Source: Candidatus Hydrogenedentota bacterium (lineage in GTDB: Bacteria > Hydrogenedentota > Hydrogenedentia > Hydrogenedentales > SLHB01). From it: a stretch of DNA of 36,184 bases. Below the pieces are notes generated by a model. That model searched no databases, was not told where the DNA came from, and saw only the letters and a list, made by a program, of their open reading frames with translations. Numbering within the stretch: position 1 is the first letter of the stretch; each line of letters begins with the position of its first letter. Where the stretch lies: assembly GCA_019695095.1 (NCBI GenBank), contig JAIBAQ010000046.1:1-36184 (forward strand). The letters are read 5' to 3'. Position numbers and translations under genes: made by a program. This document shows, piece after piece, positions 1-4,277 of this stretch.

Positions 1-359
1 TCACTGATTTCGATCAGCGCGGGTTCCTGCCATTTGCGTTGAGGATCGCCCGCATTCCAGAAAGCATTCGAGTAGACAATACAGTCCAGCCCCATGGGAT
101 TATTCGGATCATCAGTGACCGGCGTCGTAAACTTGAGGGTCATAGAGCCAGCCGGAATACCAAGGGTCACAATCGAATCGTTATTGGGAATACCTGGGCC
201 GCCGCCTCCCGGCGCACCTAGCGCTTTGGTCGAATCGGTGTAACCCGATTGTGGGGAGACCGGCGCGTAGGTAACAACGCTATCCGCCCACGGATCTTCG
301 GCACAAGCCGAAAGTGCGGCCGCGAACAGCGAGAATGCGGCGACCCAGGAAGTTCTCAT
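1..359 (-). CDS. putative secreted surface lipoprotein, partial (C-terminus beyond window edge)
   Basis: The frame is open from an ATG at 359 to the window edge, giving about 119 residues. The N-terminus has a hydrophobic signal segment ending in Leu-Ser-Ala-Cys, which fits a lipobox with Cys19 as the lipidated residue. The mature part begins AEDPWADSVV and carries a YTDSTKALGAPGGGG stretch, then a beta-rich segment (TLKFTTPV, DCIVYSNAFW). This opening, with an ALGAP motif and a later D/N-x-F-W/F element, is typical of secreted cell-surface proteins of Planctomycetes, Bacteroidetes and Deltaproteobacteria, which have no firm biochemical role. The start overlaps the stop of the preceding beta-propeller-like gene in an ATGA, so both are probably translated from one transcript under the upstream cobalamin riboswitch. 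A B12-related surface role is inferred from this context only. Surface lipidation is likewise inferred. Confidence 0.72.
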   Translation of the reverse strand, partial: MRTSWVAAFSLFAAALSACAEDPWADSVVTYAPVSPQSGYTDSTKALGAPGGGGPGIPNNDSIVTLGIPAGSMTLKFTTPVTDDPNNPMGLDCIVYSNAFWNAGDPQRKWQEPALIEIS

Positions 360-1357
360 TTTGTCAGCCCCCGGGCTTTCCGCGCGCCCAGCGCAGAGAG
401 CGCAGCAAGGCAAGCGACAATTCCAAGTCCCGTCAGTCCGGGCAGCGGTATAAGGGTGTCAGCCGGGGTCCACAAGCCCGGAACACCCAAATACACCGAC
501 TGGATGGCGATGATTAGGCCGGTGAATGGATTGAAACCTGCATTGTAAAACTCGAAGCCCGTACCGACCGGATCGTAATTGTTGACAACCAATCCTGTCG
601 TGGGATTAACGGTCTGTATCGAACCAAAGCCACCGATAATGAGGTTGCCGTCATTATCCACCCCTGCTGGACCGCCGCTGTTGTACGTTCCGATAAGCGC
701 ACCGCTCGTCCAAGTGAGAGGGGTGTTCGTGTTGAACGCGTTGATTAGATTGGCCACGGCGAACCTGCGGGTTTCCCCTGTCCAACCGTCGGCGGTGTAG
801 ATGTATTGCAGCGCGGCATCTACTGCAATCGCCGCGGAATAGGTGCCGACATCTTCCACCACGACCTTGAACGTGGGCGTTCCTGAGAAGTCGACGAGCA
901 CGAGCTCGGGAAGGTCGTAGTCATATGGACCTGGACCAACATACAAGGCGCGGTTGATTAGCAACTGTGTGTTGGAAATCCAGACGCCCGAGTAGTTGTT
1001 CACCGTGTTTATCGAGGCGACGGGAGTACCCGGAGCGTTGAGGGCAACAACCGTGATAGCTCCGCTGTATCCTGCACCGAGAGCGGCTCGCGAGCCATCC
1101 GGTGTAATGGCGAGGAAAGACGCATCGCCTGGATATCCGGAAGCGACCTGCGTGAAATAGTCGACGTTGACACCTGCTTGCTCGAAGACGTCACCCCCGT
1201 TCCAAACCAATAGGCGACCATCCTGCATCGGAGCGACAACGACGTTGAATGCCCCCGCTGCGGGAGTTGGAAAATTCGTGAACTGTTCACCCGCCCCCCA
1301 GGCAGGCGACGTTGCCCCGAAGAGCAACACTGCGCAAAGACAATGGAGCTGTCTCAT
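356..1357 (-). CDS. secreted beta-propeller-like protein with CTERM-type sorting tail
   Basis: This encodes about 333 residues from the ATG at 1357, which has an AGGGG Shine-Dalgarno sequence nine bases upstream. An ATG at 1378 and a GTG at 1438 are in frame but lack a good ribosome site. The protein starts with a signal peptide (MRQLHCLCAVLLFGATSPAWG). The middle is made of repeated beta-strand units (for example LLVWNGGDVF, FLAITPDGSRAALG, YIYTADGWTG, LIIGGFGSIQTV), as in YVTN/YncE-type propellers. The last 35 or so residues form a short IPLPGLTGL motif, a hydrophobic helix and a basic end (ARKARG), like PEP-CTERM-family sorting tails. It is the first gene after a cobalamin riboswitch, and its stop overlaps the next start. 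In Bacteroides the propeller BtuG captures B12 at the cell surface. An analogous role here is an inference from fold type and riboswitch, not from sequence identity. Confidence 0.7.
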   Translation of the reverse strand: MRQLHCLCAVLLFGATSPAWGAGEQFTNFPTPAAGAFNVVVAPMQDGRLLVWNGGDVFEQAGVNVDYFTQVASGYPGDASFLAITPDGSRAALGAGYSGAITVVALNAPGTPVASINTVNNYSGVWISNTQLLINRALYVGPGPYDYDLPELVLVDFSGTPTFKVVVEDVGTYSAAIAVDAALQYIYTADGWTGETRRFAVANLINAFNTNTPLTWTSGALIGTYNSGGPAGVDNDGNLIIGGFGSIQTVNPTTGLVVNNYDPVGTGFEFYNAGFNPFTGLIIAIQSVYLGVPGLWTPADTLIPLPGLTGLGIVACLAALSALGARKARGLTK

Positions 1358-1438
1358 CAATAGAAACCCCTGCTTCATGCGTGACCGGCGCTCGCGACCG
1401 CGCCACGCGACCTCCGTTGCGTGCAAACCACTGAGCAC

Positions 1439-1636
1439 GGGACAGAACAGGCGCGAATGCAGGAGGTTTTGCGGGAGCCACCTACGCGATGCCGAAGAGC
1501 CTGGACAACAGACGCATTACGGGCTGTGTCGAAGAATCTTACGGAAGCGGTAGACGGGAAAAGGTAGGTATTCGGAGAGGCGATCTCGATATGCCAGAAC
1601 TTTTCCGCGAAGTTTCCGCAATCCCAACTGCGAAGT
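1439..1636 (-). other. long untranslated leader between riboswitch and first gene
   Basis: About 200 bases separate the aptamer from the in-frame GTG at 1438, and 280 bases separate it from the preferred start at 1357. I find no convincing small gene, no GC-rich hairpin followed by a U tract, and no clear anti-Shine-Dalgarno pairing. Short reading frames crossing the aptamer on either strand have no ribosome site and no recognisable product. Confidence 0.5.
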
Positions 1637-1800
1637 GGGGCAGGTCTTCTGGCTTCCGGATCGTTCTACCGGCCGCGCCTTCCCGCTCGGTCGAGCAGTG
1701 GCTTCATGCGGCTTTCGTCCCCGGTTACAGCAGCGCGACTGCGACGGATTCTCACCGTCTTCCCTTGGCCCACGCGCCAAGAAACCGATTGTGTGAGTTA
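1637..1800 (-). ncRNA. cobalamin (B12) riboswitch, class I
   Basis: Read on the minus strand, the conserved class-I cobalamin aptamer elements occur in order. A TTGGC/GCCAA hairpin (1765-1780) is followed by GGGAAG (1759-1764), GGTGAGAATCC (1746-1756) and the B12-box-like CTGTAACC (1723-1730). GCCACTG (1696-1702) and GGGAAGG (1678-1684) then form the peripheral arm, and GAAGACCTGCC (1639-1649) closes the core. The spacing of all blocks is normal for the family. A strong promoter lies just upstream (1829-1857). The aptamer is followed by about 280 bases of leader before the beta-propeller-like gene. I see no obvious U-tract terminator in that leader, so the expression platform is not identified. 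Exact aptamer ends are approximate. Confidence 0.93.
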
Positions 1801-1828
1801 CCCCCTCCTTTCATCTTACGTGACCGTC

Positions 1829-1857
1829 ACTATACGGCGGTCACTGTCCTCTGTCAA
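1829..1857 (-). promoter_or_regulatory. sigma-70-type promoter of the riboswitch transcript
   Basis: On the minus strand TTGACA (1852-1857) is followed after exactly 17 bases by TATAGT (1829-1834). The predicted transcript starts near 1822, a short distance upstream of the cobalamin aptamer. The promoter sits in the 90 bases between the stop of the GH42-like gene (1890) and the riboswitch, so the B12-controlled genes form their own transcription unit. A GTGACCG/CGGTCAC inverted repeat overlaps the -10 region and could also form a hairpin. Confidence 0.8.
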
Positions 1858-1889: not shown

Positions 1890-4277
1890 TCACGGATACT
1901 GCGTTCCAACGGGTTCACTGGAGACAGATTCCGGCGGCGGCGGCTCGACGGGTTCGGCCGGCGCCTGCGTACTGTCTGTCGATTCCGCGTTCTCTACCGC
2001 GCCTTGCGGCAACTGCTCGGTTTCTTTCGAGTACTCCAGTCCAAGCACGCGGGTGTCGCCCTGCTTCATAGGCATGAGCAGGAACCGTTTGTTTTGCCAA
2101 CCTACATCAGGGTCCAGCCGGTCTTGGATGTTGAACGTGGCGCCAAGGTCCAGGGAGCGCTCGCCGTTGCTTCCGGCATGAACCGCAACCATGTTCGGGC
2201 CAAAGTGAAGGATGTCGGAGTGCTTTTCCCCACCCTGTCGAATGAATACGTGCTTCTCCAGGATGAGCAGGATTTCGCGCAGGATCTCCGGCGTCAAAAC
2301 GGGCTCCGCAACATAGATGGATGCCCAACCTTCCGGGAAGAACTCGGCAGCGACACTGACCATGCCTGATTCGCGGTAACGAGCCATGATCTTTGTTTCT
2401 TCGGTCTCGATATAGAACATGGGAGCCCATTGATCGGGTCCACCGAAGGCCGTGCCCTGCCCCACAAATCGTCCGCCAGATAGCTGCCACTGAGAACCGG
2501 AGCGCGCCGGACCGTCAAACATAAGGACCTTTAGTCCTGTTGTCGCGGCACAGTTTTCGACGGATGGCTGATCGTCAATATAGCCCGGGGCGTACATCCA
2601 GATCGCCGCCGAGCGTTGGGCAATGAGAAGATTCTTAATCTGATCGCGATCCTCGGGATGGAGGTGGAATGCGTTCACAAACAAGTACACCGCGGCTTCT
2701 TGGGCGTGGCCGCTTAGGATGTCCTGAAGAAGACAGAATTGCGTGGGAACTCCAGAGCGTAGTGCGGCATCACGCACACCAGCCAACAGGAGTTCGTTCA
2801 GTTTGGTGTCGCATCGCTGAAAGAAGCGGCTCGCCTCGTCCACCACGACGCAGAGAGTCAGGCGCTGCTCAGGCGTCGCGTATGCAATAGGCTCTCCCTT
2901 GGTCCAAGCTTCGCTCGTGGGCCAGACCGCTTGGTAGGACTCACGCATCCGCCGGAACAGGTCCCACATTTCCGTGTTGTGAAGGCTGCCAACGCCTTGC
3001 GCGTCATCCCACATCACCCCGAGTCCGTGCGTCACGGCGGCGGCAAAGTTGCGTCTCTGAACGCGCAAAACATCCTCGGAGCGCAGACCCTCAATACGTT
3101 CAATTTCACCCGATACGGCATTTCGGGAAATACCTGTGCGCGTATCGTCCACGAGCGCCCACAGCTTCTTTCGCCAACGCGCGCTGTCTACCGGCCCCAT
3201 GAAGCCGCCAGCCCCCCCCAGACCGCGGTCCTTGTATGAGACTGGAGTGACTACCCCGTCTACCACGCCGTCCAAGAGTATCCCTAAGGCCAGCTGTCCA
3301 CTGTCGTTCGCGGGGTATTCGAAAGCGCTGCCATAGGTGGCAAGAATCAGCAGAGAGGTCTTCGCATTCTGCCGAAGGAACCCTGCGAATTCCGATACTG
3401 CATCGGCGGTCGATTCGGATAGGTAGCGCAAGTAGTCTACTTGACGCTGTTCCTCCGGCAACTTGAAGAAGACGTTTAGAGTATCCGCTGAGTTTGGCTT
3501 GTCCGGAATCGGGGCATCGTCAAACGTGCAAGCCAAGTCTCCCCATGCGGTTTGCAGCGCCATATTGTCGGCATATTGAGTGCGGAGCCATGCGCGAAAA
3601 CCCGATGTGCCAGACGGAGAACGGTCATAGTCGCCCGCATGCAGCCACGCACCGTCAACCGGCCCGGCAACTATTACGCCCTTGATGTGGTCACCCGATT
3701 TGGCCTTGTTCACCGTTTCCGCCAGAACGGCCAAAGCAGATTTGCCTGCTTCTGTCCACACTTGAGACTCCAGACTCACCAAGCGCTTTCCATCCACTTC
3801 AATGCTTGAAGCCGCATCGGGATGGGCGTCCAACCAAGCGGCTGGCGGCTCGAAGTTGATCCACAGGAAGAGCGTCGCTTCCGGATCGGTTTCAAGGATG
3901 CGATCCAGGGCCGCAGTAACCGGCTCGAGCGGGGTGTCCACTCCTGGCCATGGAAGTGGCACGCGAACCGCATATTGGTGCACGCCGGCGAGCGCGGCAA
4001 GTCGCACTTCGCCGATCACAGCTTCAATATCGGAGCCAGGGAGAACACTTGTGCTGAAAAACAGCGGCCATCCCATTCGCGGCGTGGCGGCTGTCTCTTC
4101 TTCCGGAGCCGAAACGGGTTCGTCCGGCGTCCAACTCTGCATGTCAGAAGTCGAGAAGTCCGAACCACCCAACGATCCGATCCAAAACCCGACTATCGCG
4201 GCGGCTCCAATGAAGACCACCGCCAGCAAGATGGGAAACAACACACCCTTCGAACTAGAACTTCCGCGTCGCGACAT
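1890..4277 (-). CDS. membrane-anchored GH42-like (beta-galactosidase-like) protein
   Basis: This encodes 795 residues. A short basic N-terminus and one membrane helix (about residues 11-33) are followed by an acidic, Pro-rich linker (45-65) and a TIM-barrel-like region (about 67-440). Segments such as ALAGVHQYAVRVPLPWPG and LWALVDDTRTG match the style of GH42-like proteins of Planctomycetes, and the later part resembles a beta-galactosidase trimerisation/GATase-like domain. Where related proteins carry a Gly-Glu-Trp around the acid/base glutamate, this one reads GPVDGAW (205-211), so the usual Glu appears replaced by Ala210. The C-terminus is low-complexity and rich in Pro, Glu and Ser. The start overlaps the polyprenyl synthase stop by 23 bases. 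Membrane anchoring with the barrel outside the cytoplasm is predicted. Whether it is an active glycosidase is doubtful, and the substrate is unknown. Confidence 0.68.
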   Translation of the reverse strand: MSRRGSSSSKGVLFPILLAVVFIGAAAIVGFWIGSLGGSDFSTSDMQSWTPDEPVSAPEEETAATPRMGWPLFFSTSVLPGSDIEAVIGEVRLAALAGVHQYAVRVPLPWPGVDTPLEPVTAALDRILETDPEATLFLWINFEPPAAWLDAHPDAASSIEVDGKRLVSLESQVWTEAGKSALAVLAETVNKAKSGDHIKGVIVAGPVDGAWLHAGDYDRSPSGTSGFRAWLRTQYADNMALQTAWGDLACTFDDAPIPDKPNSADTLNVFFKLPEEQRQVDYLRYLSESTADAVSEFAGFLRQNAKTSLLILATYGSAFEYPANDSGQLALGILLDGVVDGVVTPVSYKDRGLGGAGGFMGPVDSARWRKKLWALVDDTRTGISRNAVSGEIERIEGLRSEDVLRVQRRNFAAAVTHGLGVMWDDAQGVGSLHNTEMWDLFRRMRESYQAVWPTSEAWTKGEPIAYATPEQRLTLCVVVDEASRFFQRCDTKLNELLLAGVRDAALRSGVPTQFCLLQDILSGHAQEAAVYLFVNAFHLHPEDRDQIKNLLIAQRSAAIWMYAPGYIDDQPSVENCAATTGLKVLMFDGPARSGSQWQLSGGRFVGQGTAFGGPDQWAPMFYIETEETKIMARYRESGMVSVAAEFFPEGWASIYVAEPVLTPEILREILLILEKHVFIRQGGEKHSDILHFGPNMVAVHAGSNGERSLDLGATFNIQDRLDPDVGWQNKRFLLMPMKQGDTRVLGLEYSKETEQLPQGAVENAESTDSTQAPAEPVEPPPPESVSSEPVGTQYP

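Follow-up and report, generated by a model that had tools for sequence, protein, structure and literature searches.

The operon found at the beginning of the contig studied here is very probably a cobamide-capture system controlled by a cobalamin riboswitch. Judging from profile comparisons, the N-terminal domain encoded by its second gene shares ancestry with the B12-binding domain of BtuH. A preliminary description had proposed a device for the capture of B12 outside the cell, and this proposal is strongly supported by the BtuH homology of gene 2 together with the linkage to the riboswitch over two phyla. The window, i.e. the whole stretch of DNA that was analysed, is the complete contig G000:C46 (36,184 bases) of a Candidatus Hydrogenedentota genome. 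Its base 1 is a contig end, and it covers just the first part of the BtuH-like domain. The features were found where they had been located previously, but all of them lie on the minus strand (Table 1).

Table 1. Features of the operon and its riboswitch in the window.
Feature	Positions	Strand	Basis
Sigma-70-like promoter, TTGACA-N17-TATAGT	1829..1857	minus	11/12 matches; expectation in shuffled sequence 0.1
Cobalamin riboswitch aptamer RF00174, full length	1622..1816 (1816-1622)	minus	Covariance model, 99.3 bits
Leader, from aptamer to gene 1	1358..1621	minus	No terminator-like site; folding energy z 0.70
Gene 1 (A), encoding a six-bladed beta-propeller predicted to be exported and ending in a CTERM-like tail	356..1357	minus	Predicted model, homologues
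Putative signal peptide of gene 1, MRQLHCLCAVLLFGATSPAWGA	1292..1357	minus	Sequence only
Beta-propeller domain of gene 1	455..1300	minus	Model residues ~20-301 align with six-bladed folds, Z 23-24
IPLPG, hydrophobic helix and R/K-rich end forming the CTERM-like tail of gene 1	359..448	minus	Helix 310-332 in the model
ATGA shared by the end of gene 1 and the start of gene 2	356..359	minus	Read from the sequence
5' part of gene 2 (B), broken off at the contig end	1..359	minus	Presumed remainder on contig G000:C31 (L217), fused to a pseudopilin
Start of BtuH-like, putatively B12-binding domain, PWAD ... GLDCIVYSNAFW ...	3..293	minus	Family alignment; family profile matches 7BIZ and 8BLW

The complete B12 aptamer that had been recognized upstream of gene 1 was confirmed with the covariance model RF00174, which matches over its full length (model positions 1-189) with an E value of 7.6e-24, the score being far above the gathering score of 31.5. 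It is the sole cobalamin riboswitch match in this genome. The textbook promoter announced at the same place is also confirmed as a promoter-like sequence, 11 of its 12 positions matching, where 0.1 such sites would be expected by chance. In the leader between the aptamer and gene 1, we found neither an intrinsic terminator nor an unusual folding. Upstream of the riboswitch and on the same strand, the window encodes a protein of 795 aa with a weak, GH42-like match (1890-4277, minus strand); in L053, L060 and L063, the operon is likewise preceded by similar protein ends.

Pfam gave no match for either the gene 1 or the gene 2 product of the window. A family profile was built from 25 members of the gene 2 family and, when it was searched against the PDB, only two sequences were obtained: 8BLW_B (E 6e-21), which is BtuG1 including the BtuH domain at its C-terminus, and 7BIZ_A (E 1e-16), which is BtuH2 crystallised with B12. 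BtuH2 is a B12 binder required for efficient uptake (PMC8941943). The model predicted for the homologue L058 (pLDDT 83, residues 31-286 forming the domain) matches both chains, with Z 18.4 for 7BIZ_A (188 residues, 3.0 A, 30% identity) and Z 18.1 for 8BLW_B, the two alignments covering 188-197 residues at about 30% identity. The system had been thought to be independently evolved; for gene 2, these comparisons point instead to a common ancestry with BtuH. When P0002 was used alone, matches to clostridial toxin repeat chains appeared at around E 0.001, which we judged to be due to chance since the family profile recovers only BtuH2 and BtuG1.

The contacts of BtuH2 with B12 include N399, F401, Y510, W511, W577, H476 and Q333 (PMC8941943). 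Counting by hand on the alignment, we observed that N399 and F401 correspond to the N (25/25) and the F (23/25) of the motif 'SNAFW' in the gene 2 family, and Y510 to the Tyr of 'WGY' (24/24). In gene 2, Trp511 and Trp577 are not conserved and His476 and Gln333 have no alignable counterpart, indicating that its pocket differs from that of BtuH2.

Gene 2 had been taken for a lipoprotein gene. The window copy, of which about 119 residues are encoded before the contig end, indeed contains LSAC as a possible lipobox, but this trait is not conserved in the family: a Cys located at most 10 residues before PWAD is present in 3 out of 24 members, window copy included, and AxA-like signal-peptidase-I sites are found in most of them. 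Surface lipidation characterizes the Bacteroides members and was not used here to define the domain family. At the other end, the homologues carry a C-terminal transmembrane segment followed by an Arg-rich tail. In the L058 model, the chain continues beyond the BtuH domain with Ig-like domains, as in invasin/intimin, and finishes with a transmembrane helix. In addition, the NCBIfam model NF033170 (LIC_13355 lipoprotein, Leptospira) weakly matches the BtuH-like domain of L058 and L063 (E 2e-10 for L063). The literature describes LIC_13355 as a host-binding protein and does not mention B12; a cobamide-related origin of this protein may therefore merit testing.

The association of the riboswitch with these genes is conserved in related genomes. 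RF00174 reaches the gathering score in 28 of the 29 propeller-homologue loci scanned, the exception being L031, where no riboswitch match was found. When GTDB contigs were scanned with the gene 2 alignment, 121 loci were obtained (80 kept), belonging to Candidatus Hydrogenedentota and Planctomycetota, mainly Phycisphaerae. The 35 gene 2 loci labelled otherwise come from genomes that each have one RF00174 match with E <= 0.001, 33 of these matches being above the family cut-off. The riboswitch lies 0.4-2.2 kb upstream and on the same strand in 32 out of 32 planctomycete BtuH-like loci, most of which display the gene order propeller, gene 2, pseudopilin. This count excludes L136, L153 and L195 (labelled Nitrospiraceae, Rhodothermaeota and Armatimonadota), whose BtuH-like genes have no upstream riboswitch in the available sequence, short contigs and misbinning being possible reasons. 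The covariance match, the retention of the riboswitch with the gene pair in relatives and the propeller model, on which the preliminary description had made its reading depend, were thus all found.

Forty further riboswitch loci were collected in the order: a member of the gene 2 family follows in 16, a pseudopilin gene comes first in 13, and neither is present in 11. Among these 11 loci, three precede BtuF-D-C-like genes (L108, L110, L131), one has a FecCD gene downstream (L106), two are cut by contig ends (L105, L127), and five precede divergent exported proteins (L115, L116, L117, L122, L123; family f10). The f10 proteins, encoded behind riboswitches, are 460-490 aa long and possess Ig-like ends and CTERM-like tails. 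We did not count them as clear members of the propeller family, the Hydrogenedentota profile giving no match and the planctomycete profile a weaker, distant one (95%, E 2e-8). Other arrangements were also observed: a tandem pair of cobalamin riboswitches precedes a pseudopilin gene at G004:C11:52302-52814 and at G024:C373:2296-2915, and in L049 and L036 one riboswitch is followed by tandem double propellers. Gene ends resembling SHGCIRL-x-NDDVI, probably of L,D-transpeptidases, often adjoin the operon or the riboswitch (L041, L046, L048, L053, L054, L057, and likewise L098, L107, L111, L112).

The start of gene 1 was taken as the ATG at 1357 (M-R-Q-L), an alternative ATG at 1378 being possible. 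In agreement with the propeller announced by the preliminary description, its product is predicted to be a beta-propeller followed by a C-terminal helix (pLDDT 90, pTM 0.84). Most of the model can be aligned with six-bladed folds, among them Pizza6 and NHL domains. The suggested likeness to BtuG did not stand, the model being six-bladed and BtuG seven-bladed; the 50 top-ranking structural matches of the propeller do not include BtuG, a result still compatible with a distant relation. A sequence search of the PDB with the propeller, single or as a profile, returned chance matches only, no BtuG chain was matched by the profile, and back-translated peptides retrieved no propeller relative in GTDB contigs. 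The propeller is at most a candidate B12 binder. By whole-genome search, homologues of gene 1 were found in 31 of 147 genomes, its own included, and the planctomycete and Hydrogenedentota propellers are homologous to each other (hhalign E 3.6e-36, 261 columns).

The CTERM-type tail attributed to gene 1 is recognizable by its P-L-P-G motif, hydrophobic stretch and R/K-rich end, but the CTERM models gave no match with it. PEP-CTERM tails occur in planctomycete propeller homologues, that of L173 being above the Pfam PEP-CTERM cut-off. In some Hydrogenedentota homologues, dockerin-like or EF-hand-like ends, recognized by eye, replace the CTERM-like tail; L032, L033 and L034 end with dockerin-like repeats and have no CTERM-like tail, which suggests another anchoring. 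Mucisphaera calidilacus, mentioned below, is a Phycisphaerae species. In the planctomycete loci L168 and L178, the slot of gene 1 is occupied by a DUF4465 protein (E 2.5e-50 and 9.8e-54, respectively) with a PEP-CTERM-like tail; PF14717 (DUF4465) is absent from gene 1 of the window. Within DUF4465, binding of B12 has been shown for eight distantly related members, including one of Mucisphaera calidilacus (PMC13398666).

We regard it as a real possibility, although on balance a doubtful one, that B12 is bound by gene 2 alone and that the propeller has a general function at the surface, as an adhesin, a scaffold or a lactonase-like enzyme, and only shares the operon. The six-bladed fold is indeed common, being that of lactonases, NHL domains and strictosidine synthase, the propeller lacks a sequence link to BtuG, and the 16 riboswitch loci mentioned above have a BtuH-like gene and no propeller. 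However, in almost all carriers of the two phyla the propeller comes first after the riboswitch, its position is taken in L168 and L178 by a member of a B12-binding family, and Bacteroides thetaiotaomicron has a propeller fused to a BtuH domain in BtuG1 (PMC10404256). We favour a contribution of both products to cobamide capture.

Genes 1 and 2 had been described as a two-gene operon. Both are present, but a third component, a pseudopilin, has to be added, which is encoded on contig C31 of the same genome. There, the second half of a gene 2 starts at the last base of the contig and runs in frame into the pseudopilin, the junction consisting of TRKPAHRRG followed by FTLVELLVVIAIIG. By homology to L058, around 190 residues are absent between the ends of C46 and C31, so that the joining of the two contigs is something we infer; each half of gene 2 has one match only in the genome. 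Fused forms of gene 2 and pseudopilin also exist in relatives, e.g. L038, L053 and L063. Whether downstream or fused, the third product starts like a prepilin and weakly matches DUF1559 and H-X9-DG. Prepilin peptidase would cut it on the cytoplasmic side, before the FTLVEL segment. With an Arg-rich segment that follows the transmembrane helix and would lie in the cytoplasm with the prepilin peptidase site, the fusion could be the precursor of two proteins.

The need of these bacteria for B12 was deduced from their gene content. All 68 genomes of the order encode B12-binding domains and none of them gave a CbiC match, and therefore the host most likely scavenges B12 and does not make it. FecCD permeases are encoded in 65 of the 68 genomes. 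As previously noted, the neighbourhood of the operon showed no btuB, btuF or cobalamin-synthesis gene; in this genome, BtuF-like, ATPase and FecCD genes, of presumed substrate, are found away from it on contig C343. No TonB plug (PF07715) was found in this genome, which is 95% complete. In the order, the plug is present in 17 of 68 genomes and absent from 30 of the 38 good ones, keeping in mind that draft genomes may conceal genes. Plug domains are present in 15 of the 32 planctomycete carriers, so the operon is not a strict alternative to TonB receptors. Secretins are encoded in 67 of the 68 genomes and exosortase-like proteins in 50, of which 38 are above the cut-off; this genome has two strong PF09721 exosortase matches (E 2.6e-60 and 1.7e-55).

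These data also bear on the idea of an ordinary Btu system, whose TonB receptor would be encoded elsewhere or missed in the draft assembly. The plugs of the planctomycete carriers and of the 17 genomes of the order, as well as the BtuFDC-like genes, are in keeping with it. Nevertheless, we consider it unlikely, given that neither this nearly complete genome nor 30 of the 38 good genomes of the order has a plug and that none was seen beside the operon.

We propose that the cobamide-capture system works as follows. When intracellular cobalamin is low, the riboswitch presumably permits expression of the operon. The products of genes 1 and 2 would be exported and held at the surface by their C-terminal tails, probably through exosortase-type sorting. 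The BtuH domain would bind B12 outside the cell, as expected from its homology to a proven binder, and the propeller may aid capture or hand-over of the vitamin. More speculatively, the pseudopilin adjoining or fused to gene 2 may be cut free by prepilin peptidase and then hold the binding proteins in place or move them. B12 would then have to cross the outer membrane, for which this genome yielded no TonB-dependent plug, and be taken over by a BtuFDC-like transporter encoded elsewhere. A pilus-assisted, TonB-independent route, in which prepilin peptidase would split the gene 2-pseudopilin chain and a retractile pseudopilus, working with a secretin, would carry the bound cobamide over the outer membrane, seems to us rather improbable. 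Finally, a pilus or adhesion system repressed by B12 and bringing cells to B12-producing partners or particles, in place of a binding system, would accommodate the pseudopilin beside or fused to gene 2, the 13 riboswitches with a pseudopilin as first gene and the invasin/intimin-like Ig domains in the C-terminal part of gene 2, but it is very unlikely in view of the homology of the BtuH domain to a proven B12 binder and of the BtuF-D-C-like uptake genes that follow other riboswitches of the order.

All parts of this operon belong to known types (cobalamin riboswitch, BtuH domain, DUF4465, CTERM tails, pseudopilins) and their combination is undescribed in the literature searched, in which no paper linked cobalamin riboswitches with Hydrogenedentes or BtuH with Planctomycetes. 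In the BtuH study, based on a panel of gut species, homologues outside Bacteroidetes were reported for three Firmicutes only. For the propeller family and for the H-X9-DG-like pseudopilin group, the present data offer hypotheses of function.

Compared with BtuH (BtuH2 and the BtuH domain of BtuG1), gene 2 has a profile-homologous domain with the same predicted fold, predicted riboswitch control and export, and counterparts of the Asn, Phe and Tyr contacts but not of Trp511 and Trp577. It differs from BtuH in having a C-terminal transmembrane segment and Arg-rich tail in place of a conserved lipid anchor, Ig-like repeats after the domain whereas BtuH has PKD domains before it, and a linked or fused pseudopilin with no btuB beside it. 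Gene 1 shares with BtuG a beta-propeller, predicted export and riboswitch control, and the pairing with a BtuH domain, but the propeller of BtuG has seven blades and belongs to a lipoprotein associated with BtuB (PMC6143338), whereas gene 1 is six-bladed in its model, ends with a CTERM-like tail and has no detected sequence similarity to BtuG. DUF4465/BtuJ proteins, which have a jelly-roll fold and are absent from the window, hold in L168 and L178 the same position as gene 1 and bear a similar tail. With PEP-CTERM/exosortase proteins, gene 1 has in common the short motif, hydrophobic helix and basic end, in a genome that encodes exosortases. The third product has the prepilin N-terminus of DUF1559/H-X9-DG pseudopilins and is distinguished by its position behind a cobalamin riboswitch and its joining to a BtuH-domain protein. 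BtuH-type capture is known from gut Bacteroidetes with a TonB receptor; here the BtuH domain appears in a conserved riboswitch operon of two environmental phyla, where the propeller is of another kind, the anchoring is CTERM-like, a pseudopilin is added and the genome often has no detectable TonB plug. The operon is thus a concrete candidate for B12 capture in such bacteria, and the outer-membrane step becomes testable.
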